DNA of 21,505 bases from a virus: positions 1-21,505 of IMG/VR virus record IMGVR_UViG_3300020477_000156. The stretch is one strand, 5' to 3'. Every line of letters starts with the position of its first letter. Positions within the stretch are counted from its first letter, which is position 1. The notes under the pieces were generated by a model. The model was not told where the DNA came from and made no database searches. It was given only the letters and a program-made list of their open reading frames with translations. Shown here one piece after another: positions 9,009-21,505 of the stretch. The position numbers and the translations under genes are program-made.

Positions 9009-9028
9009 ACTAAACCTGGAGAATGAAA

Positions 9029-9466
9029 ATGTTTGGTGAAGACATGGATCTAACCAAGATCAGCGCTGCCGATTTCCTTGCTGCTCTGGAGCAGGCTGAG
9101 ACAGCCGAGACTGAGACCACCGAGGAAGTAGAGAAGACTGCTTCTCAGGTCGTTTCTGAGCTTACTGATGAGGACCTCGAGAAGATTTCTGCTGAGGACC
9201 TGATGGAGCTTCTGGCTGCCGTTGAGCAGGAAGAGGCTGTAGCCGAGAAGACCGCTGCCCTTCAGGGTGGTGACTACGATGGCTATGCCCTTGCCGGCGA
9301 GGTCATGGGAACTGCGATGGCTGAGGCCTTTGCTGCGAACATGAACAAGATGGCTGCTGATGAGGCCCCGGAAGAGGAAGTTGACCTGAGTCAGATTTCC
9401 GCTGCCGAGCTTCTGAATGCCATCGCCGAGATGGAGCAGGAAGAGGGTCAGTCCCCTTTAGCCTAA
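9029..9466 (+). CDS. acidic protein with three ISAAELL-type repeats
   Basis: This 145-residue protein is very acidic and has almost no basic residues outside the K-T-A segments. Three copies of a short helix repeat: K-I-S-A-A-D-F-L-A-A-L-E-Q-A-E (10-24), K-I-S-A-E-D-L-M-E-L-L (52-62) and Q-I-S-A-A-E-L-L-N-A-I (122-132). E-K-T-A occurs at 35-38 and 73-76. Y-A-L-A-G-E-V-M-G-T-A-M-A-E-A-F (86-101) resembles the LGRxMA segment of other small proteins here. The ATG at 9029 is preferred to one at 9023 because GGAG (9018-9021) is 7 nt before it but only 1 nt before the other. Acidity, repeats and E-K-T-A suggest an internal head or scaffold-like protein, but this is inference. Confidence 0.72.
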   Translation: MFGEDMDLTKISAADFLAALEQAETAETETTEEVEKTASQVVSELTDEDLEKISAEDLMELLAAVEQEEAVAEKTAALQGGDYDGYALAGEVMGTAMAEAFAANMNKMAADEAPEEEVDLSQISAAELLNAIAEMEQEEGQSPLA

Positions 9467-9729: not shown

Positions 9730-10259
9730 TGGAACAGCAGGTCTTCTCTGCAACCTTCGTAAAGGAGGTTTCCGATTCTCTCGGTGCAGAGAAGACAGCT
9801 ACTGTTCTAGGTCCTGCTACTCGAAGTATTGGTCGTGGGGTTGGTGAGCTAGCCAAACGGTTTTTATCCAGTGTCTCCGGGAAAACTACTGCAGATAAGG
9901 CTCTTGCGTTAGCAAAGCATCCTGCGATCAAGGCTTACTTTCCTGACCAGACTGAGGCGCAGATAATCAAGCGTCTTCGGGCTGGGAAGCTAGGTGAGGG
10001 GATTCGCTATACGGCTAAGGGGACTCAGAAGGTTGTTCCTGTTCCAGGGGCACCGAACAAGAAGATGCTTGAAAGGGTGAATCCTTTCGAGGGTCAGGGG
10101 TACAATCCCGAAGTTGTTAAGAAGCTCCAAGACCTTGCGAAGGCAAGAGGAGTTCAGAAGGTTACTCGTTTAGCTACACTTGGTGGAGCTGGTTACGGGT
10201 ATTCGAAGTATAAGAAGACCAGGCCACGCCTCTCTACCTACGGTGGATACGGCTACTAA
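9729..10259 (+). CDS. basic accessory virion protein with FVKEV/EKTA N-terminus
   Basis: This 176-residue protein overlaps the preceding stop by one base (TGATG). The N-terminus holds T-F-V-K-E-V-S (9-15) and then A-E-K-T-A-T-V-L-G (20-28), two short motifs that recur in other proteins of the window. The rest is basic and mixed, with K-H-P-A-I-K-A-Y-F-P-D-Q-T-E-A-Q-I-I-K-R-L near the middle. A Gly/Tyr-rich end follows (A-T-L-G-G-A-G-Y-G-Y, then K-Y-K-K-T-R-P-R and Y-G-G-Y-G-Y). The N-terminus looks like a removable targeting peptide. An internal, packaged protein is the favoured reading; no enzymatic motif is visible. Confidence 0.65.
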   Translation: MEQQVFSATFVKEVSDSLGAEKTATVLGPATRSIGRGVGELAKRFLSSVSGKTTADKALALAKHPAIKAYFPDQTEAQIIKRLRAGKLGEGIRYTAKGTQKVVPVPGAPNKKMLERVNPFEGQGYNPEVVKKLQDLAKARGVQKVTRLATLGGAGYGYSKYKKTRPRLSTYGGYGY

Positions 10260-10272
10260 CTGTGAGGATCAA

Positions 10273-10704
10273 ATGAACAGGGCATTAGCAGAGCTGTACG
10301 GGACAGTATCCCGAGAAACGCTTAACAAGATGGCCTCTGCTGCTGGTGAAGTTGAGACTAGTGATGAACTAGACCTCTCCAACATCTCTGCAGCCGAGCT
10401 TCTTAACCTCCTCTCCGCAGACGACGTTGATGTCGATGCAGAGCCGGTCGAAGAGAAGACCGCTGAGGTTGAGACTTCTGCCGAGTCGGTAGAGGATTCT
10501 GATGAGGGCGAAGAGAAGGTTGCTTTCAGCGACGACGAATTCATGCAGTATGACACTCTGGGTCGCATCATGGCGCACCAGGTATACGCTGAGCTCGACG
10601 ATGCAGGGACTGAGACCACGGATGAGTCTGAGAAGGTTGCAGAAGACGCTGCCTCTCAGGCCGACCGACTTCGCAGTGTCTTGATCGGCAAGCTCTCCGA
10701 GTAA
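10273..10704 (+). CDS. acidic protein of the LGRxMA/ISAAELL family
   Basis: In this 143-residue protein the ATG at 10273 has GAGG about 7 nt upstream; an earlier in-frame start at 10180 would lie inside the preceding gene. Recognisable parts are N-K-M-A-S (18-22), L-S-N-I-S-A-A-E-L-L-N-L-L (35-47) and E-K-T-A at 61-64. E-K-V-A follows at 81-84, then Y-D-T-L-G-R-I-M-A-H-Q-V-Y-A-E-L (93-108), another E-K-V-A (120-123) and the C-terminal D-R-L-R-S-V-L-I-G-K-L-S-E (131-143). It combines segments seen separately in the proteins at 9029, 16703 and 5261, so it links them into one family. Strongly acidic between motifs. Likely an internal head or scaffold-type protein; the function is unknown. Confidence 0.72.
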   Translation: MNRALAELYGTVSRETLNKMASAAGEVETSDELDLSNISAAELLNLLSADDVDVDAEPVEEKTAEVETSAESVEDSDEGEEKVAFSDDEFMQYDTLGRIMAHQVYAELDDAGTETTDESEKVAEDAASQADRLRSVLIGKLSE

Positions 10705-13517: not shown

Positions 13518-15914
13518 ATGGCTGAGCTGGCTCGCCCTGGCGTTGAAATTCAGCAGGTAGTTGCAACTACCAGCCCCACAATTCTGCAACCCGCACTGAT
13601 GCCCTGTCTGGTGGCTCCGTGTAACCGAATCGTAGATGCATTTACATCTTCGGGTGCGGTGAACACGCTTGCTCGTGCTGGTGCGTATACCAATGGTGTT
13701 GGCACAGTTGCATACTCGTTCCCGCAGTTCACGTACGGTACGGGCAGTGACTTGATGCACGGGAATGAAGCCCGAGCCTGGATTGAATCTGGGTCGAGTA
13801 CTGCTGAGCTTAACAGTGCTGCAGACGAGGTTGTTGTCCAGGCTGGTGCTGGTGGCTGGAGCTATGTAGCAAGTACTCGCACACTGACACTGGTTGGAGC
13901 GCTGGCCGACAGCCTAGGAATGGCTGCTGGTGACGTGGTGCGACTCACGACGGTTGGCGATGATGGCCCTGTTGCCAACGGGACCGATGCTCTAGATGTT
14001 GTTATCGTCAGCATTACCTCCGAGACGGCTGTAGTCATTCGAACTATCGATGACTGGGGTCACGATGTCGCTGGTGGCGCATCTCAGGCGGGGTGGAAGC
14101 TAATCAAGAACCCCGCAGAGTTCATGGTTCATACGGGAGCAGCTATAGGCTCTACCCGGCGAATTACGACAAATGCCGCAATAAGCAGTACCACCACCAA
14201 CCGTGGTGTAGACATTACAGCGGTAACTGCTGGTTCGGCTGGCGATGCGATTACGGTTACTTTCGACAGTACGGCTTCTGCTATCGCGGTGGCCAGGTCC
14301 GGTAACGCGATTACGGTTGATTACGTTGGTACTACTTCTACGTGGGCTCAGATTAAAGCGGCGTGGGATGCAACCAGCATTGATGAAGATCTAGCTACGT
14401 TTACCGTTCTTGGTACCGGAGGAGACGCAGTACCTGCTGTGGCAGACCTTCGCTCTACGAATGGCGGAACAGGCGCGACCTACTCCTTAGATGGAGGTGC
14501 AGATAGTGGCACTCTGGTGGTGGATGAAGATCTACTTGCCACAAAGTTCTCGATTGCATCAACTGCTCTGAGCGGCTTCATCCTTATGCAGTACACAGCA
14601 CTGCGACGGGACGTAACAAACGCCGGTGCTACTCCAGCCCTGCTTCGATTCGATAGCGAGACAGCGATGGTTGCCTCCATCGGTCCGGTCGATACTCGAA
14701 ACCCACTGGCCCTCATGTTTTCGATGGCGCTCAAGAACTCCCCCGGAAAGACAGTTTCTGGAATAGGTATTGATGAGCAGTCTCCTCAGTTCCCAGAAGG
14801 AACTGTTGCTGCCTATACGAGAGCTTTCACATTCCTTGCCTCTAAAGAGGTGTATGCAATTGCTCCCTTCTCTCAGAGTTCGGCAGTTCACCAGGTACTC
14901 AAGACACACGTTACTGCGATGTCTGCTTCTACTGAGAAGCATGAGCGAATCGGAATTGTAAGCAGGCCTCTGGTTACTAATCAGGCCGATACGGTACTTG
15001 GAAGCGGTACGACGACAGGAGATATTACTGTCGGCGGTAACTTCACATCTGGTGATAACTTCACAACGATGGCTGTTACTGCTGGTGATGTGCTCGTAAT
15101 TGCCAGCGAAGCAGGTCCATTTGCTCTGGGTAACGGTCTGACTGGTTGGCGAGTAGCGTCTATTTCTGGCGATACAACTATTGCTTTGAATGCAACAGAT
15201 GTATCTTCTCAGGCCCCCACGGCGAATTCATCTGCTACCTGGACGATTTATCGACCTGGTGCAACAGCTACCTCCAATCTCCAGGAGGCTGAAGCTGTAG
15301 CTGCTTACAGCTCTGGGCTTGGAACTCGACGAATGGTTCAGGTACTTGCTCCGCAGGTAACAGTTACCGTTGGTGGAAGTCAGCAGCTGGTGTCGGGAGC
15401 ATTTGCTTGCGCAGCCTTCGCCGGCCAGATTGGCGGAATCGATGTTCAGAAGCCGCACACCAACCTGACTCTTACTGGGTTGGATGCTGTAAAGAATACT
15501 GGAGATCGCTACAGTACGTCCGAACTGGACACGATAGCTGGTGGGGGTACAACTATTCTCGTACAGGATCTGCCGAGTGGTCCGGTTATAGTTCGTCACC
15601 AGCTCACTACAGATGTTTCGACAATTGAATACCGAGAGTTGTCTATTACTAAGGTACTGGACTACCTCTCCAAGTTCTTCCGAAACACGCTTAAGCCCTT
15701 TATCGGGCAGTTCAATATTACCGGCGGGTATATGGACACGATGGGTACTCTGATTGAGGGTCAGCGCTCTGCTCTGATTGCTCGAGGGACCATTTCTAAC
15801 CTGACGATCAACAGCTTAATCCAGAGCACTACTCAACCTGATACCGTAGAGATCGACCTATCGGTCGCTGTTTACTATCCCGCCAATTACATTCGGGTCA
15901 AACTGATCATCTGA
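13518..15914 (+). CDS. contractile tail sheath protein
   Basis: This 798-residue protein has GGAGACG before the ATG. The N-terminus A-R-P-G-V-E-I-Q-Q-V fits the start of phage tail sheath proteins (x-x-P-G-V-Y/E). The central part includes V-Y-A-I-A-P-F-S-Q-S (about 451-460). The C-terminal ~110 residues (about 690-798) show the conserved sheath end: Y-R-E-L-S-I-T-K-V-L-D-Y-L, R-N-T-L-K-P-F-I-G-Q-F-N, and a final beta hairpin rich in V/I. Residues ~225-330 form a Thr/Gly/Ala-rich insert with two A-I-T-V strands and a T-x-x-Q-I-K-A-A-W helix, a beta-sandwich insertion seen in several sheath and tail proteins. The protein is longer than common sheaths (about 400-660 residues). It polymerises around the tube and contracts at infection. 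No E-K-T-A motif was seen. Confidence 0.88.
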   Translation: MAELARPGVEIQQVVATTSPTILQPALMPCLVAPCNRIVDAFTSSGAVNTLARAGAYTNGVGTVAYSFPQFTYGTGSDLMHGNEARAWIESGSSTAELNSAADEVVVQAGAGGWSYVASTRTLTLVGALADSLGMAAGDVVRLTTVGDDGPVANGTDALDVVIVSITSETAVVIRTIDDWGHDVAGGASQAGWKLIKNPAEFMVHTGAAIGSTRRITTNAAISSTTTNRGVDITAVTAGSAGDAITVTFDSTASAIAVARSGNAITVDYVGTTSTWAQIKAAWDATSIDEDLATFTVLGTGGDAVPAVADLRSTNGGTGATYSLDGGADSGTLVVDEDLLATKFSIASTALSGFILMQYTALRRDVTNAGATPALLRFDSETAMVASIGPVDTRNPLALMFSMALKNSPGKTVSGIGIDEQSPQFPEGTVAAYTRAFTFLASKEVYAIAPFSQSSAVHQVLKTHVTAMSASTEKHERIGIVSRPLVTNQADTVLGSGTTTGDITVGGNFTSGDNFTTMAVTAGDVLVIASEAGPFALGNGLTGWRVASISGDTTIALNATDVSSQAPTANSSATWTIYRPGATATSNLQEAEAVAAYSSGLGTRRMVQVLAPQVTVTVGGSQQLVSGAFACAAFAGQIGGIDVQKPHTNLTLTGLDAVKNTGDRYSTSELDTIAGGGTTILVQDLPSGPVIVRHQLTTDVSTIEYRELSITKVLDYLSKFFRNTLKPFIGQFNITGGYMDTMGTLIEGQRSALIARGTISNLTINSLIQSTTQPDTVEIDLSVAVYYPANYIRVKLII
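14247..14318 (+). repeat. direct repeat inside the sheath insertion domain
   Basis: GCGATTACGGTT occurs at 14247-14258 and again at 14307-14318, exactly 60 bp apart in the same frame, encoding A-I-T-V twice. It marks a duplicated beta strand in the inserted domain rather than a mobile or regulatory repeat. Confidence 0.55.
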
Positions 15915-15938: not shown

Positions 15939-16685
15939 ATGGCGAATCGCACAGTTGCTGAATTTGACTTCTTCAATAAGTCCGTACAATCCGGTCTTAC
16001 GGAGGGTCAGTTTGTAAATGCTGAGTCGATCCTTATTGCCTGTGGACCGCCTAACCTGGCGGCTATGGCTGGCAGTGATGGAGTTACCTCGACATCACAG
16101 ACTGTCGCTTTCCCTCTTGGGAAGGTGCAGCAGTTCAGTTTGGGACAGAATACGGCTTTCCAGCGAATCTTTGAGATTGGCTCGAAGAGGTCGTACTTCA
16201 TCTCTGGTCGATCTGTAGGAACTCTCGGTCTTGGTCGAGCGTACTACCACGGACCTTCCTTGCTCCGTGCTGCGTATGCCTACTACGCGTCCCCGAGCAG
16301 TAGCGGTATTAATATCACTGCGATGTACGACAACGGCGATGCTATGAGCAACGTCAATCCTCACGATGTACAGATTGCTCCTGGTTCCGGAGCAAATGGG
16401 AACCTTTGGTTGAACCTCGCTTCGGACATCTTCAGCCAGCCTATGGGCTTCCTGATTATGATTCGTGACAGCAACAACGCTACCGTTGGTGCTTTCTATG
16501 CCGAGTACTGCGTTATTCCGACACACGGATTCCAGTTCGACAGCCAGTCGGTTGTTGTCCAGGAGCAGGCAAGCTTCCTCTTCGAACGTCTTGTACCCAT
16601 CAATCTGACGGGTATTGTTGAAGTCTTTGGTACAGCAAGCGACCCGCACGGAATTATAGGTAAGGCCGTCGGTCTCAACAGCTAG
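15939..16685 (+). CDS. tail tube protein
   Basis: This 248-residue protein begins 25 bp after the sheath stop with AAGGAA upstream, the usual sheath-tube order of contractile-tail phages. It is beta-rich with few charged helices. G-K-V-Q-Q-F-S-L-G-Q-N-T and Q-R-I-F-E-I-G-S-K-R-S-Y-F-I-S-G-R (about 61-92) look like the conserved core strands and loop of large-phage tube proteins. The next segment G-L-G-R-A-Y-Y-H-G-P-S-L-L and the C-terminal E-R-L-V-P-I-N-L-T-G-I fit stacking rings. It lacks Cys clusters and the E-K-T-A motif. Chaperone genes would be expected next; here two accessory genes and a reverse-strand island intervene. Confidence 0.75.
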   Translation: MANRTVAEFDFFNKSVQSGLTEGQFVNAESILIACGPPNLAAMAGSDGVTSTSQTVAFPLGKVQQFSLGQNTAFQRIFEIGSKRSYFISGRSVGTLGLGRAYYHGPSLLRAAYAYYASPSSSGINITAMYDNGDAMSNVNPHDVQIAPGSGANGNLWLNLASDIFSQPMGFLIMIRDSNNATVGAFYAEYCVIPTHGFQFDSQSVVVQEQASFLFERLVPINLTGIVEVFGTASDPHGIIGKAVGLNS

Positions 16686-16899: not shown

Positions 16900-17709
16900 G
16901 TGACCGCTGACTTTTTCAAGGTCGCCGATGCTTTTAAGCGTCGGATGGAACGTCTTCTTGCAAAAGGAGACCGGCCTGGAGTACAGCGCCTTGCTACTCA
17001 GATGATGGAGAAGCAGCCCTCCAGACATCTTGAGGTTATGCGTGCCCTGAAGCAGGACCCTTCTTTGGGTGGGTCTGCAATTCGACATACTAGGGCCCAC
17101 AAAAAACTCCCAGAGGGGGTTCGTGCAGCGTTAAACACTCCTGCAGGCCGTAACCTTCGGGAGAAGGTGTTGCAGAAGCGTCTCGCTCAGTCCCGTATAC
17201 CGCATCAGATGCCGCACCTTCGGAAACGGATCTTAGACCCCAGGACAAACCCAGGGTTGATAGCTAAGCAGCAGGAAGTCCTGGCTTTGGTAGCGAAGCG
17301 CCGGAAAGATCGAGCACTTGATAGGGCTGCTGGAATAGTTAAGAAGAAAAAGGCAAGAATTTCTCCGGCCGGTAGTCTTCCAAAGCCCACTAGGGTGCGT
17401 TACGTCCCTTCGGTTAAGCAAGATTGGTCTAGGACAATGCACCCGGCAGATCGAACTTTCGGGGCGTACAAAGCTACACCTACTTCAGCGATGTCGGCAG
17501 TAAGAAGTCTTCCCCCCGGAAACCTTGTTAGCGTTACGGAGTATAATGCGCGTCGACGGTCTGTTCCGAGACCAGCGAAGGTTCGTTCCCCGGCGGCACA
17601 GCGTAGGCTTGAGCGAATGCGCTCTAAGTACGTAACCAAAACCCCCAAAAAGGGTTTTGGTAAGGCGCTAGCTTTTATTGGTGGAAAGCTTCTGCGGAGA
17701 GGTCGCTAG
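16900..17709 (+). CDS. highly basic protein, probable DNA-binding internal protein
   Basis: This 269-residue protein starts at GTG 9 nt after the preceding stop, without a clear ribosome site, so it is probably coupled. It is very rich in Arg and Lys throughout, with little acidic content. The N-terminus D-F-F-K-V-A-D-A-F-K-R-R (4-15) matches the F-x-K-[E/V]-[A/V] tags of other accessory proteins. Helical basic regions at about 55-150 include R-K-R-I-L-D-P-R-T-N-P. A Lys patch K-K-K-K-A lies near 148-152, and Ser/Pro/Arg-rich sections resemble histone-like tails. The end is K-T-P-K-K-G-F-G-K-A-L-A-F-I-G-G-K-L-L-R-R. It could condense DNA in the head. Its TAG shares the CTAG palindrome with the stop of the convergent gene. 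Confidence 0.65.
   Translation: MTADFFKVADAFKRRMERLLAKGDRPGVQRLATQMMEKQPSRHLEVMRALKQDPSLGGSAIRHTRAHKKLPEGVRAALNTPAGRNLREKVLQKRLAQSRIPHQMPHLRKRILDPRTNPGLIAKQQEVLALVAKRRKDRALDRAAGIVKKKKARISPAGSLPKPTRVRYVPSVKQDWSRTMHPADRTFGAYKATPTSAMSAVRSLPPGNLVSVTEYNARRRSVPRPAKVRSPAAQRRLERMRSKYVTKTPKKGFGKALAFIGGKLLRRGR
17635..17661. other. perfect 10-bp inverted repeat inside a coding end
   Basis: ACCAAAACCC (17635-17644) pairs perfectly with GGGTTTTGGT (17652-17661) around a 7-nt loop. It lies within the last codons of the basic-protein gene and about 45 bp beyond the stop of the convergent leftward gene. No T tract follows on either strand. It may attenuate or terminate transcription at the convergence point, or reduce read-through. 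Confidence 0.4.
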
Positions 17710-18203
17710 GTACCCAGCTTCTGTAGATAAGCAGACAGCTCATCCTGGTCGTACCCAGGGTCTGCCTCTTTATCCTCCTCGAATTTCTCTTCCGCAGTCT
17801 TTACGGTCTGCGGAGCTCCGTCTGGTTTAGTAATGACCCCTGCCCAGGCAGGCCACTCTTCGATAACTCCACTAATAGGAAGCATGCTGCCTCTTCGTTG
17901 GTAGTTCTCGGCATGTACTGTAGGGTCTGGGTAGATGGGCCAGAGGCCTAGATGATGCCCAATGGCTATGCAGGCCATGGCAAGGCTACCATTGCCTCCT
18001 GTCCAGGGCATGAGAAGCTGCCAGCTGAGCCCAGACTCAATGTTTGGGATGTCAGCCAGTGCCTGAGCGAAGGCTTTCCGCTCCCGCCTTGCTGTCTCTA
18101 CGTCGATCAGGTACTCGTGCCTCGGATGAACCTTGACCGTTGTTGTCCCGACCATCGTTCCCTCTGGCCTCAGTATGCTCTGAATTATCCTTGCTAGATC
18201 CAT
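17706..18203 (-). CDS. unrecognised protein of reverse-strand island 1
   Basis: This 165-residue protein is read leftward. The ATG at 18203 is chosen because AGAGGA stands 8-9 nt upstream; starts at 18245 and 18155 are possible. The body has a mixed alpha/beta look with Trp-containing segments (G-L-S-W-Q-L-L-M-P-W-T-G-G-N-G-S-L-A-M, then E-E-W-P-A-W-A-G-V). The end is acidic and carries T-V-K-T-A-E-E-K-F-E-E, a K-T-A segment like those of the head proteins. Its stop codon shares the CTAG palindrome with the stop of the convergent + gene. It overlaps the end of the upstream island gene by about 150 bp. No family was recognised; T-V-K-T-A may hint at virion association. Confidence 0.6.
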   Translation of the reverse strand: MDLARIIQSILRPEGTMVGTTTVKVHPRHEYLIDVETARRERKAFAQALADIPNIESGLSWQLLMPWTGGNGSLAMACIAIGHHLGLWPIYPDPTVHAENYQRRGSMLPISGVIEEWPAWAGVITKPDGAPQTVKTAEEKFEEDKEADPGYDQDELSAYLQKLGT

Positions 18204-18360
18204 CACCAAGTTCCTCTTCAAGCCATAGACCAATAAGCGCCTCAACTACGCTGTCTACAGTAATCTCACTAGAAGTTGCAGGTAGTATCTCCCGCAGATG
18301 ATCTACTCGATCTTGCAGGTACCGACCGTAGGGTTCCTGGATTTTGACAACGATTGTCAT
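18052..18360 (-). CDS. ribbon-helix-helix-like protein with overrun tail
   Basis: This 102-residue leftward reading frame is the first gene of reverse-strand island 1. Residues ~2-7 (T-I-V-V-K-I) form a strand. They are followed by helix Y-G-R-Y-L-Q-D-R-V-D-H-L-R-E-I-L and, after a turn, helix T-V-D-S-V-V-E-A-L-I-G-L-W-L-E-E-E-L, the strand-helix-helix order of ribbon-helix-helix DNA-binding proteins. From about residue 53 the sequence turns Gly/Asp/Arg-rich and polar and overlaps the next gene in another frame, so the tail is probably an overrun. The start lacks a strong ribosome site. A 7-bp inverted repeat just upstream could be its operator. A small repressor of the island is a reasonable guess; the fold is inferred from pattern only. 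Confidence 0.45.
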   Translation of the reverse strand: MTIVVKIQEPYGRYLQDRVDHLREILPATSSEITVDSVVEALIGLWLEEELGDGSSKDNSEHTEARGNDGRDNNGQGSSEARVPDRRRDSKAGAESLRSGTG

Positions 18361-18412: not shown

Positions 18413-18988
18413 ATGCCCAGAGCAGCCCAGCAAGTAACAGAAGAGCAAGAGCCCATGGAGCAGCAAGATGCTCCTGTAGAAGACCCCATAAATCCTGCTG
18501 AAGAGCTGGAGGGTGAGCTTAGGTTTGCGCAAGATCCACTAACCTCTGATGCGCGAAGAAAGCTTATCGAGGACAAACTGGAGGATATCGACGTCTCCCA
18601 GTTCCTCTTCCAGGGATACATCCAACAGGAAGTAGGTCTGGCAGTCCCCGTTACCTACCGAACTCCGTACACCAGGCACACTCTGTGGGCCGAGAGGATG
18701 ATTACGGACATGGTGGATAACAATGTCCTCTTTGTAGAGCACTACGGAAGAATCCTTAATCTGGCTATTTACCTTGTGGCCATCGGAGAGAAGCGTCTCC
18801 CCGATCTCGGTGCGTACAAGAAGGAAGCGGATTACGACAGTTTCCGAAAGGCCGTAGAGGAGAGAATTGAGTATCTCCAGGAACTCCCCACAGGATTTAC
18901 AGATGACCTCGGTGTGAACCTCGAGTGGTTCAATCGCCGAGTTCGTACCAAACTCGCGGTTACTGGGGTGGCCGACCTAAAAAACTGA
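18413..18988 (+). CDS. tail assembly chaperone, zero-frame product
   Basis: This 191-residue protein has AGGAG about 6 nt before the ATG. The N-terminal ~45 residues are acidic and Pro/Gln-rich (disordered); the remainder is helical with P-V-T-Y-R-T-P-Y and R-I-L-N-L-A-I-Y-L-V-A-I-G near the middle. It ends V-A-D-L-K-N followed by TGA directly after the slippery heptamer at 18979-18985. Size, position downstream of the tube gene and the -1 frameshift to a second frame match the G / GT tail assembly chaperone pair known from lambda and many other tailed phages. These coat the tape measure before tube polymerisation. The frameshift product would be about 329 residues. Sequence similarity alone would not identify it; the frameshift architecture does. 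Confidence 0.75.
   Translation: MPRAAQQVTEEQEPMEQQDAPVEDPINPAEELEGELRFAQDPLTSDARRKLIEDKLEDIDVSQFLFQGYIQQEVGLAVPVTYRTPYTRHTLWAERMITDMVDNNVLFVEHYGRILNLAIYLVAIGEKRLPDLGAYKKEADYDSFRKAVEERIEYLQELPTGFTDDLGVNLEWFNRRVRTKLAVTGVADLKN
18979..18985 (+). promoter_or_regulatory. -1 ribosomal frameshift slippery heptamer
   Basis: A-AAA-AAC in the zero frame (CTA AAA AAC TGA) is the canonical X-XXY-YYZ pattern and lies immediately before the stop. Slippage by -1 places ribosomes on CTG ATG GAG, continuing into the next frame up to 19401. It is one of the most efficient bacterial slippery sequences known. Confidence 0.85.
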
Positions 18989-19401
18989 TGGAGGACCCAG
19001 GGTTCTGGGTCCGCGCTAATGTCTTCTACGATAGGAGTCGTTCACTCGACGACCTGTTCCCGGTACAGCTGCACCTTCTGGATATTGTCTTTCTTCGAAG
19101 ACAAGAAGAGAAGCTAGCGCACACCTCTCTGCTACTAATGGCTATGAGAGGCGCTGAGGGCGATAAGATAAAGGGCGCGTTCGATTCCTACCTGAAGGTT
19201 GCCTACCCGTTTGTGAACCTGGGTGATGCAGAAGAAGAAAGCCGCAAGAAGATTCAAGAAGAGCTCGAGGCTATGAGCCGACATGCCCTGGTATTCCAGA
19301 ACCCCGTAGAGGTTGCACGTAAACCTCTGAGAGGCCCCGGAGCTAAAATTCTCAAGGAGTCAGCAAGACTAAAAAGAGAGCGTAAAGAAAAAGCCCCGTA
19401 G
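18988..19401 (+). CDS. tail assembly chaperone, -1 frameshift extension
   Basis: This frame is open from the slippery site to TAG at 19401. As a frameshift product it adds 138 residues to the zero-frame chaperone (about 329 in total). As a separate ORF it could start at ATG 18988, overlapping the upstream stop (TGATG), giving 137 residues. It is helical and charged: L-F-P-V-Q-L-H-L-L-D-I-V-F-L-R-R-Q-E-E-K-L-A, then A-E-E-E-S-R-K-K-I-Q-E-E-L, and ends in a basic tail (A-R-L-K-R-E-R-K-E-K). In lambda the T part binds the tube protein while the G part binds the tape measure. Here the next + strand gene would be expected to encode the tape measure, but a terminator and reverse-strand genes follow. 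Confidence 0.75.
   Translation: MEDPGFWVRANVFYDRSRSLDDLFPVQLHLLDIVFLRRQEEKLAHTSLLLMAMRGAEGDKIKGAFDSYLKVAYPFVNLGDAEEESRKKIQEELEAMSRHALVFQNPVEVARKPLRGPGAKILKESARLKRERKEKAP
18993..19012 (+). promoter_or_regulatory. frameshift-stimulating hairpin
   Basis: GGACCCAG (18993-19000) pairs perfectly with CTGGGTCC (19005-19012) around the tetraloop GGTT. The stem starts 7 nt after the slippery heptamer, within the usual 5-9 nt spacing for -1 stimulators. Confidence 0.8.
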
Positions 19402-19417: not shown

Positions 19418-20158
19418 TTATCTAGCCAGGTTGTAGTGGAGGTCCCACTCCGCACCGGCATTTGCAAACTCGTCTAACTTCAACTGTGTTAACCGAGATA
19501 TAGGCTCTTTCAAAACTGCCTTTATTGCCGGCCCTTCGCTACTAGGTGCTCTGGGTAACATCGACAACTGCTTATCATTCTGTAGGTCACCTATATGCAT
19601 GTAGTAGATGTAGGGATGTTCCAAACGAAGAAGGAACATAGGAAACTTGCAGTTCAAGGTCACAGGACCATCTCCCCAAACCGCGAAAGGCTCTACAAAT
19701 TCGGGGTTCGGGATATTGTATGCCGCTACCTCGTAGTAGCTTTCTTCTACGAGATCTTCATACACAGAGCTTCTTACAAAAACGGATTCATCTATTCGTG
19801 TTAATGCCTCACCGGATGGAGTTACAAGGTGCCTTAGGGCAGACTCCCAGGTGTCCACCATGCCCGTAAGTGTCATCATCATGGCGAACCAGGAAGGAAC
19901 GCCTAACCTACGAATCATGATGGACCTGTATGCAGAGGCAACCTCATCATAAGTGTCCGCGTTATGGAGACAGTCCCATTCCGTATCTCCGTAAATAGGG
20001 AGAGCCTCCCTTACCTGGAGCTCGGTGAAGAGTCTGTCCAAGCCAATAGTATCGTCGTCGTGATAGTGAGGCCCTCGGTCTCCAGAGTGGTCTAGGTAGT
20101 ACTCAGTACCTCCCATTGGCGCTGACTGAGGAGCGACGCCAGCTAGTATGTTTCTCAT
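19418..20158 (-). CDS. unrecognised protein, last gene of reverse-strand island 2
   Basis: This 246-residue protein is read leftward. Its ATG overlaps the preceding stop by 4 bp (ATGA), so it is co-translated. The N-terminus is polar with an H-Y-H-D-D-D cluster (about 32-37), which could bind metal. The middle is rich in aromatic and Met residues (V-P-S-W-F-A-M-M-M-T-L-T-G-M-V). The C-terminal third has F-P-M-F-L-L-R-L-E-H-P-Y-I-Y-Y-M-H-I-G. No signal peptide or membrane helix is convincing. No family was recognised. It lies downstream of three small genes in one operon and ends at the bidirectional terminator. Confidence 0.65.
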   Translation of the reverse strand: MRNILAGVAPQSAPMGGTEYYLDHSGDRGPHYHDDDTIGLDRLFTELQVREALPIYGDTEWDCLHNADTYDEVASAYRSIMIRRLGVPSWFAMMMTLTGMVDTWESALRHLVTPSGEALTRIDESVFVRSSVYEDLVEESYYEVAAYNIPNPEFVEPFAVWGDGPVTLNCKFPMFLLRLEHPYIYYMHIGDLQNDKQLSMLPRAPSSEGPAIKAVLKEPISRLTQLKLDEFANAGAEWDLHYNLAR

Positions 20159-20595
20159 GTGCGCTTTACCTCGAGAGTTACGGTTGTTCCTGTAGGGAGA
20201 GGTACCCGAATGCTGAAGTCCCGAACCTGCTTGCGCTTACCGCGAAGCCGAGGGTCTATTTCATAGTTCTGCAGTACTAAGCGGAGGATGTCTTCCAGAG
20301 ACATCCGAAGACATAGTGGAGGCAGCCTAAGCCGCTCTACAAGGTGTGCCTTTATCTCGTACTTCGTTATGAAGGCAGACCTATTTTTCGGAGACCAGGT
20401 CCAGGGACCCATGTGCCAATAACGTTCCATGTCACAAATGAAGACGATGGCGTCCTCAATTGATAGACCCGCTATGTCTGTTTCTGTAAGCCCGGCGTCC
20501 TTAGCTCGGTGCTTAAGCCAATCCCAGGTGTCCTGCTCTGGTCCGGGAATCTCTCGTAGAAGGTCTAGGCAGAGCGTAGCCTCCTCTTTAGTCAT
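20155..20595 (-). CDS. unrecognised small protein of reverse-strand island 2
   Basis: This 146-residue protein overlaps both neighbours by 4 bp (ATGA at each end). The N-terminal half is acidic and helical with Trp-rich parts (D-T-W-D-W-L-K-H-R and Y-W-H-M-G-P-W-T-W-S-P). The C-terminal part is basic, with R-G-K-R-K-Q-V-R-D-F-S-I-R-V and a final beta hairpin (T-G-T-T-V-T-L-E-V-K). It may be a small nucleic-acid-interacting or host-interaction protein, but no family or motif supports a specific function. Tight spacing shows it belongs to the same transcript as its neighbours. Confidence 0.65.
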   Translation of the reverse strand: MTKEEATLCLDLLREIPGPEQDTWDWLKHRAKDAGLTETDIAGLSIEDAIVFICDMERYWHMGPWTWSPKNRSAFITKYEIKAHLVERLRLPPLCLRMSLEDILRLVLQNYEIDPRLRGKRKQVRDFSIRVPLPTGTTVTLEVKRT

Positions 20596-20993
20596 AGTAC
20601 GGAGCCAAGCTGGTACACATCGTCCAAAGGGATTCCCTTATCGTGAACAACGTATAGGACGCTAGTGGCGCTCGAACCACCATCAACATAGTGGTCTGAA
20701 ACACCAACGGTATCCTTGACGACTAAGTCCCAGGGAAGCTCACCAGCTTCCATTATCTCGTAGTACCTCTGGTATTGGACGTCCTGAGCTATCTCTCCAG
20801 GTAGTCCACAACGTATTGCTTCTGCTTTCATGCATTGCACTACTTGGTCTGGCAACGTCCCAGGAACCACCTGGTTTTCATCATTCAGTAGGTCACCAAA
20901 CACTCTGTTGGCAGTCTTCGGGTTTGCTTTGGTCCACAAACCAAGGGTCCTCATAAACGTGTTCCAGTCCTCAAGTCGCTTCATCATCTTCAT
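20592..20993 (-). CDS. unrecognised small protein of reverse-strand island 2
   Basis: This 133-residue protein starts at ATG 20993 because AAAGGAGG (21001-21008, minus strand) lies 7 nt upstream; a longer version from 21011 would translate the ribosome site itself. It begins M-K-M-M-K-R-L-E-D-W-N-T-F. The body is mixed, with P-G-T-L-P-D-Q-V-V-Q-C-M-K-A-E-A-I-R-C-G-L-P and a hydrophobic strand S-V-L-Y-V-V-H-D near the end. Its stop overlaps the next start by 4 bp. It overlaps the end of the upstream gene by 23 bp. No family was recognised. Confidence 0.65.
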   Translation of the reverse strand: MKMMKRLEDWNTFMRTLGLWTKANPKTANRVFGDLLNDENQVVPGTLPDQVVQCMKAEAIRCGLPGEIAQDVQYQRYYEIMEAGELPWDLVVKDTVGVSDHYVDGGSSATSVLYVVHDKGIPLDDVYQLGSVL

Positions 20994-21384
20994 CGGAGAA
21001 CCTCCTTTCATGTTGGTTATGCGGAAGACTCAGGAGAGCTTTTCCCCTGGATGAAATGGTCCATAGGGAGACCTTTCCAGTAGAGAAAGACTCTTCCTTA
21101 ATACAAGACCGTCTAAGCTCTAGTGCCTCTCTGAGGTCAAATACTGTTTGTTGTATACGCCTCGGGAAGGGAGCGAGAACTCGCTTAACTACTGGCTGAC
21201 CCGCCTCCCACCGAGCTATTTCCAGCTCTGACCAGGTAAGGCACAAATCTGAGTACCGCCAGTTACCCGAACTCTTAGGCTCCTTCGCCTTATTCAACCA
21301 GGCTTTTATCGCTGCGTTTCGCATCGCATTTGTCCAACCCCTGGAAGGCAATCTGTATTGTATGTAATCGCCGCACTGGGCCAT
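20971..21384 (-). CDS. unrecognised small basic protein of reverse-strand island 2
   Basis: This is a 137-residue protein from ATG 21384; a GTG at 21432 would give 153 residues but would lie within the well-conserved-looking part of the upstream frame, so the shorter form is preferred. Neither start has a good ribosome site. Residues include W-T-N-A-M-R-N-A-A-I-K-A-W-L-N-K-A-K and W-S-E-L-E-I-A-R-W-E-A-G-Q, then a basic R-R-I-Q-Q-T-V-F-D-L-R-E-A-L-E-L-R-R helix, and the end is polar (E-D-D-E). It is predominantly helical and basic. No family was recognised. The end overlaps the downstream gene by 23 bp. Confidence 0.55.
   Translation of the reverse strand: MAQCGDYIQYRLPSRGWTNAMRNAAIKAWLNKAKEPKSSGNWRYSDLCLTWSELEIARWEAGQPVVKRVLAPFPRRIQQTVFDLREALELRRSCIKEESFSTGKVSLWTISSRGKALLSLPHNQHERRFSDEDDEAT
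21001..21008 (-). promoter_or_regulatory. strong Shine-Dalgarno deciding a start
   Basis: AAAGGAGG on the minus strand, 7 nt before ATG 20993. It lies inside the coding frame of the upstream gene, which continues to 20971. Confidence 0.7.
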
Positions 21385-21505
21385 CACTTGGAAGGAAGGC
21401 GCACTCACCCGGAGTGAACTGACAATCTTCACAAGTGCGCTCTACCCAGCCGCGAACTTTCTCTATTTCATAGAGGTGCAATATGGCCTCTGTGGAAGCC
21501 TCTCC
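21290..21505 (-). CDS. partial gene at the right edge, Cys-containing
   Basis: This leftward frame is open to the window edge, so the start lies outside; 71 residues are visible. It contains V-E-R-T-C-E-D-C-Q-F-T-P-G-E-C-A-F, with C-x2-C and a third Cys seven residues on. This suggests part of a metal-binding or disulfide-containing small protein. The last ~30 residues overlap the next gene and are less gene-like. A TTG within the frame at 21481 could be the true start, giving 63 residues. No family was recognised. Confidence 0.45.
   Translation of the reverse strand, partial: GEASTEAILHLYEIEKVRGWVERTCEDCQFTPGECAFLPSDGPVRRLHTIQIAFQGLDKCDAKRSDKSLVE

Follow-up and report, generated by a model that had tools for sequence, protein, structure and literature searches.

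A diverged tail assembly chaperone-like gene pair, very probably joined by −1 frameshifting and set apart from the tape-measure gene, in a contractile-tailed phage

The window analysed here, meaning the whole stretch of 21,505 nucleotides, is a 21.5-kb viral fragment from IMG/VR represented by a single contig piece. Its plus strand carries a contractile tail sheath gene (13518–15914; PHROG 279 tail sheath, E 9.7e-16) followed directly by a probable tail tube gene (15939–16685), an order that is conserved in relatives. Further along the same strand, an ORF of 191 codons with an ATG start (18413–18988; P1, the G-like half) ends in ...GAC CTA AAA AAC TGA, so that a slippery heptamer A_AAA_AAC (18979–18985) lies in frame directly before the stop codon (18986–18988), which in turn overlaps an ATG (18988–18990) of the −1 frame. 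That frame (P2, the T-like half) runs for 138 codons from CTG at 18985 to TAG at 19401, giving a predicted fusion of 329 aa, and after a 7-nt spacer there is a candidate stimulatory hairpin at 18993–19012, GGACCCAG-GGTT-CTGGGTCC, with 8 Watson–Crick pairs and a tetraloop. The elements on which the original prediction of a programmed frameshift was built (the in-frame heptamer, the adjoining TGA, the perfect 8-bp stem 7 nt downstream and the 138-codon −1 frame) are thus all exact in the sequence. Minus-strand genes at 17706–18245 and 19418–21432 flank the pair, which may therefore constitute its own transcription unit. Elsewhere in the window, two small ORFs (9023–9466 and 10180–10704) have the repeated motif DLxxISAAELLxxL in common, and an EKTA or EKEA motif occurs in several of the proteins.

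The A_AAA_AAC junction is not a chance arrangement. The string AAAAAAC is by itself not rare, with 4 sites versus 1.9 expected. An in-frame X_XXY_YYZ heptamer no more than one codon from the stop is found at 46 of 3,422 ORF ends in related phage DNA (1.3%), at 21 of which the −1 frame is, in addition, open for at least 100 codons, and both of these figures include the pairs of the window's own family. Perfect 8-bp hairpins placed 5–9 nt downstream occur at 0.12% of window positions.

Neither half has a match in Pfam, PHROGs, NCBIfam or phage tblastn searches, and single-query searches with either half, as DNA and by tblastn against phages, viral contigs, genome contigs and Rfam, were unproductive. 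The tail sheath, which weakly matches Salmonella phage Arash and Vibrio phages, also yielded nothing usable as a single-sequence query. It was an alignment of three sheaths that served as bait: 80 viral loci were fetched with it and the whole records behind 20 of them were searched, three of which carry both halves, adjacent and in −1 relation. A profile of the second half then gave 13 loci, three of them from these same records, with two others (L100 and L101) alike at the junction, and a first-half profile matched 12 of 50 further records. Homologues of both halves, adjacent and in −1 relation, are present in about 20 other records and are diverged, at 20–30% identity; two loci with weak first-half matches and a candidate A_AAT_TTA site about 12 codons before the stop (L110 and L114) are left out of these counts. 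The same sheath family is found in 10 of the 12 records recovered through the second half, and the remaining two are possibly fragments.

At the homologous junction nearly every relative examined has a canonical X_XXY_YYZ heptamer, the letters of which vary by lineage (A_AAA_AAC/T, G_GGA_AAT, G_GGT_TTT and A_AAT_TTT/C, against the 1.3% background at ORF ends). In the three relatives found first, the 0-frame closes with AAA AAT, preceded by GTA, ATA or TTA, with one further codon before the stop; others have G_GGA_AAT, G_GGT_TTT with an immediate TAG, or A_AAT_TTT or A_AAT_TTC, mostly with an immediate TAA. The layout of the window, with the stop directly after the heptamer, is also seen in L098, L012 and Arash. 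The expectation that the heptamer would be kept in homologues is therefore borne out, with one clear exception that counts against it, L097, where the site is the non-canonical G_GAT_TTT and only the T_TTT tetramer is retained. A conserved −1 peptide, LxTPLGWARAN, starts right at the slip in the relatives, and the homologues of the T-like half share this start directly after the slip site. Judged from these comparisons, the −1 frame codes for protein, conservation extends to the slippery junction, and the window very probably contains a real programmed −1 frameshift.

The same comparisons bear on other ways in which the two frames might have come about or be expressed. As the window is a single contig fragment, an indel that splits one gene, whether through gene decay or through an error in sequencing or assembly, has to be considered; many records, that of the isolated phage Arash among them, nevertheless have the split at this very junction, and with different heptamers, which makes this reading very unlikely, indeed close to negligible. 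Slippage of the RNA polymerase at the run of six A residues, rather than of the ribosome, is highly improbable, since the G_GGA_AAT, G_GGT_TTT and A_AAT_TTC sites of relatives mostly lack a long single-base run and what the relatives have in common is the X_XXY_YYZ pattern. Alternatively, ribosomes that terminate at the TGA could restart at the ATG at 18988 through the TGATG overlap, in which case the second half would mainly be translated on its own, as a protein of some 137 aa. The overlap is indeed present in the window, and its −1 frame has this ATG one codon past the slip. In most relatives, on the other hand, no ATG or GTG lies close to the slip, the first such codon of the −1 frame being at least 12 codons past the start of the conserved peptide, and yet the peptide is conserved from its first codons, so that no route to its synthesis other than frameshifting is evident. 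The slippery heptamers are likewise conserved, and there is no Shine–Dalgarno-like sequence just 5' of the window ATG. Reinitiation as the main route is accordingly unlikely. Of the suggestion that frameshifting and reinitiation both act, the second part stands only as a possibility for the window, where reinitiation may add some second-half protein; TGATG is not conserved.

Stimulatory RNA structures 3' of the heptamer are common in G/GT-type chaperone genes but are not required. The 70 nt downstream of the window heptamer fold with a minimum free energy of −27.5 kcal/mol, whereas synonymous-codon shuffles average −19.2 kcal/mol (z −2.38, 7 of 300 shuffles). With the same control and with folding that excludes pseudoknots, downstream structure scores z<−1 at 27 of 34 junctions (mean −1.98), although these are not independent tests because the sequences are related. 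No excess of structure is seen relative to synonymous-codon shuffles at L094–L098, which are five of the closer relatives and in this respect count against the frameshift reading, nor at L117 and L064. The prediction that homologues keep the stem holds in part: most of them have an excess of structure, without conservation of the hairpin in its exact form.

A G/GT-type pair customarily lies directly upstream of the tape-measure gene, though this position is not defining. The pair in the window does not: opposite-strand genes follow it and the 21.5-kb window contains no tape-measure candidate, which agrees with the detachment described originally and counts against the chaperone reading. Homologues elsewhere supply the link. 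Those of the G-like half lie directly before ORFs of 911–1203 aa in L012 and L077, the former directly after the tube gene, and in Arash gp2/gp3 directly precede gp4, a protein of 1097 aa labelled structural. The giant ORFs of L012, L060 and Arash share sequence with giant ORFs in L099, L100, L102 and G006, where about 6–16 kb separate the pair from the giant ORF downstream of it. These ORFs are tape-measure candidates on the grounds of their size, their position and their homology to one another; comparison of family models with them gave no match above the cut-off. The records L065–L078 form a second clade, in which an AAATTTT site is strictly conserved, with a strong stem, directly before a giant ORF; the site is about 3.7 kb after the sheath match, and in L077 a DUF2345-like gene precedes. 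Profile comparison of the window first half with those of L065–L078 (91.5%, E 8.7e-7) indicates distant relatives, whereas the corresponding comparison of the T halves gave no support, and thus it is only the G-like half that links the two clades by sequence.

The AlphaFold (AF2) model of the G-like half has a mean pLDDT of 75. Ranked by Z, the top PDB match to this model is the HK97 tail assembly chaperone 2ob9 (Z 5.2, 93 residues, 4.1 Å), a weak match that covers only residues 60–175 and that ranks third by Foldseek with an E value of 1.3, which counts against it; the Z score is below the level that would exclude a merely common arrangement, and the next, unrelated matches have Z of 3 and below. 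Among BFVD matches, several carry the name tail assembly chaperone, one is a T4-like baseplate hub assembly protein, and Bacillus phage G gp181/gp182 match with E values of 2e-3 to 6e-3. For the T-like model, the structure search gave only generic helical matches. We see a small but appreciable chance that this is a true −1 frameshift pair with another role, such as a baseplate-hub assembly factor, instead of a tape-measure chaperone, given the baseplate hub match, the lack of a match to curated chaperone families and the position of the pair away from the tape measure in this branch. Against such a role are the homologues directly before a giant ORF, the presence of the same giant ORF family about 6–16 kb on in the detached branch, and the fact that the HK97 chaperone has the best Z. 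The positions of the homologues and the fold match both favour the chaperone identity put forward at the outset, and we consider the locus to be a G/GT-type tail assembly chaperone pair of a contractile-tailed phage, made by −1 frameshifting, with a probability of roughly 0.84. The case that the pair works like a G/GT pair is strong, with overlapping −1 ORFs, a slippery heptamer and conservation of both, the junction features that define such pairs, all present; for its identity by descent, the case depends on how gene order and homology connect it with L012, L077, L060 and Arash.

In G/GT-type systems G is far more abundant than GT, neither protein is in the virion, and the tape measure and tube are bound. 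For this phage, the occurrence and efficiency of the frameshift, what the hairpin does and the function as a chaperone are inferred from the sequence and the models. We envisage that most ribosomes would stop at the TGA to give the 191-aa G-like protein. In a minority the tRNAs on AAA and AAC would re-pair one base back on AAA AAA, with help from the hairpin that starts 7 nt further on, and these ribosomes would read 138 more codons to give the 329-aa G–T fusion. In lambda, the tape measure is bound by gpG and by the minor product gpGT, whose T part brings in tube subunits (PMC5009743). By analogy, the tape-measure protein would here be coated with many copies of the G-like protein, and tube subunits would be recruited by the less abundant fusion. 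The most efficient slip motifs in E. coli are V_VVA_AAR and H_HHU_UUY, and one proven case of A_AAA_AAC, in an insertion sequence, is mentioned (PMC4066793). That A_AAA_AAC does not belong to the most efficient group counts against the proposed slip, but E. coli may not be the host, and a low efficiency would suit a minor product.

The pair is very probably a previously unlisted, highly diverged version of a known phage tail chaperone pair, in keeping with the low sequence similarity reported between chaperones of different phages (PMC5009743), and is unusual mainly by its distance from the tape-measure gene. More tentatively, there may be a large unrecognised chaperone family in one branch of which the frameshift pair left the tape-measure gene, its dose being set without a shared operon, and in which the slippery motif was swapped several times at a fixed protein junction. 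What is gained is a chaperone family missed by curated libraries, together with a natural series of slippery motifs swapped at one homologous site, a useful resource for testing the suitability of heptamers for different hosts. Chaperone genes cannot be located reliably by gene order, since many kilobases may separate the pair from the tape measure. Our literature searches found no paper naming Salmonella phage Arash and none joining tail assembly chaperone, frameshift, jumbo phage and tape measure. Arash is an isolated phage with a homologous pair, and is open to direct laboratory testing. In its genome (OQ632216.1; L118:1622–2538) the −1 frameshift pair consists of gp2 and gp3, with A_AAT_TTC TAA at the junction, and the tape-measure candidate gp4 comes next.

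In comparison with known systems, the window pair shares with lambda gpG/gpGT the overlapping −1 frames, a heptamer near the end of the first, an expected minor fusion and a long-tailed phage as its source, and differs in having no Pfam, PHROGs or NCBIfam match, in its A_AAA_AAC heptamer and in not being beside the tape measure. With the HK97 chaperone 2ob9 the likeness is the top structural Z among PDB matches, weak and partial and at 13% identity, and with Bacillus phage G gp181/gp182 it is a structural match to the G-like model at 14–15% identity. Arash gp2/gp3 (OQ632216) has a homologous G-like ORF ending in A_AAT_TTC TAA and a −1 frame open for 120 codons, and differs from the window pair in being annotated as two hypothetical proteins and in its location beside the large terminase gene and before gp4.
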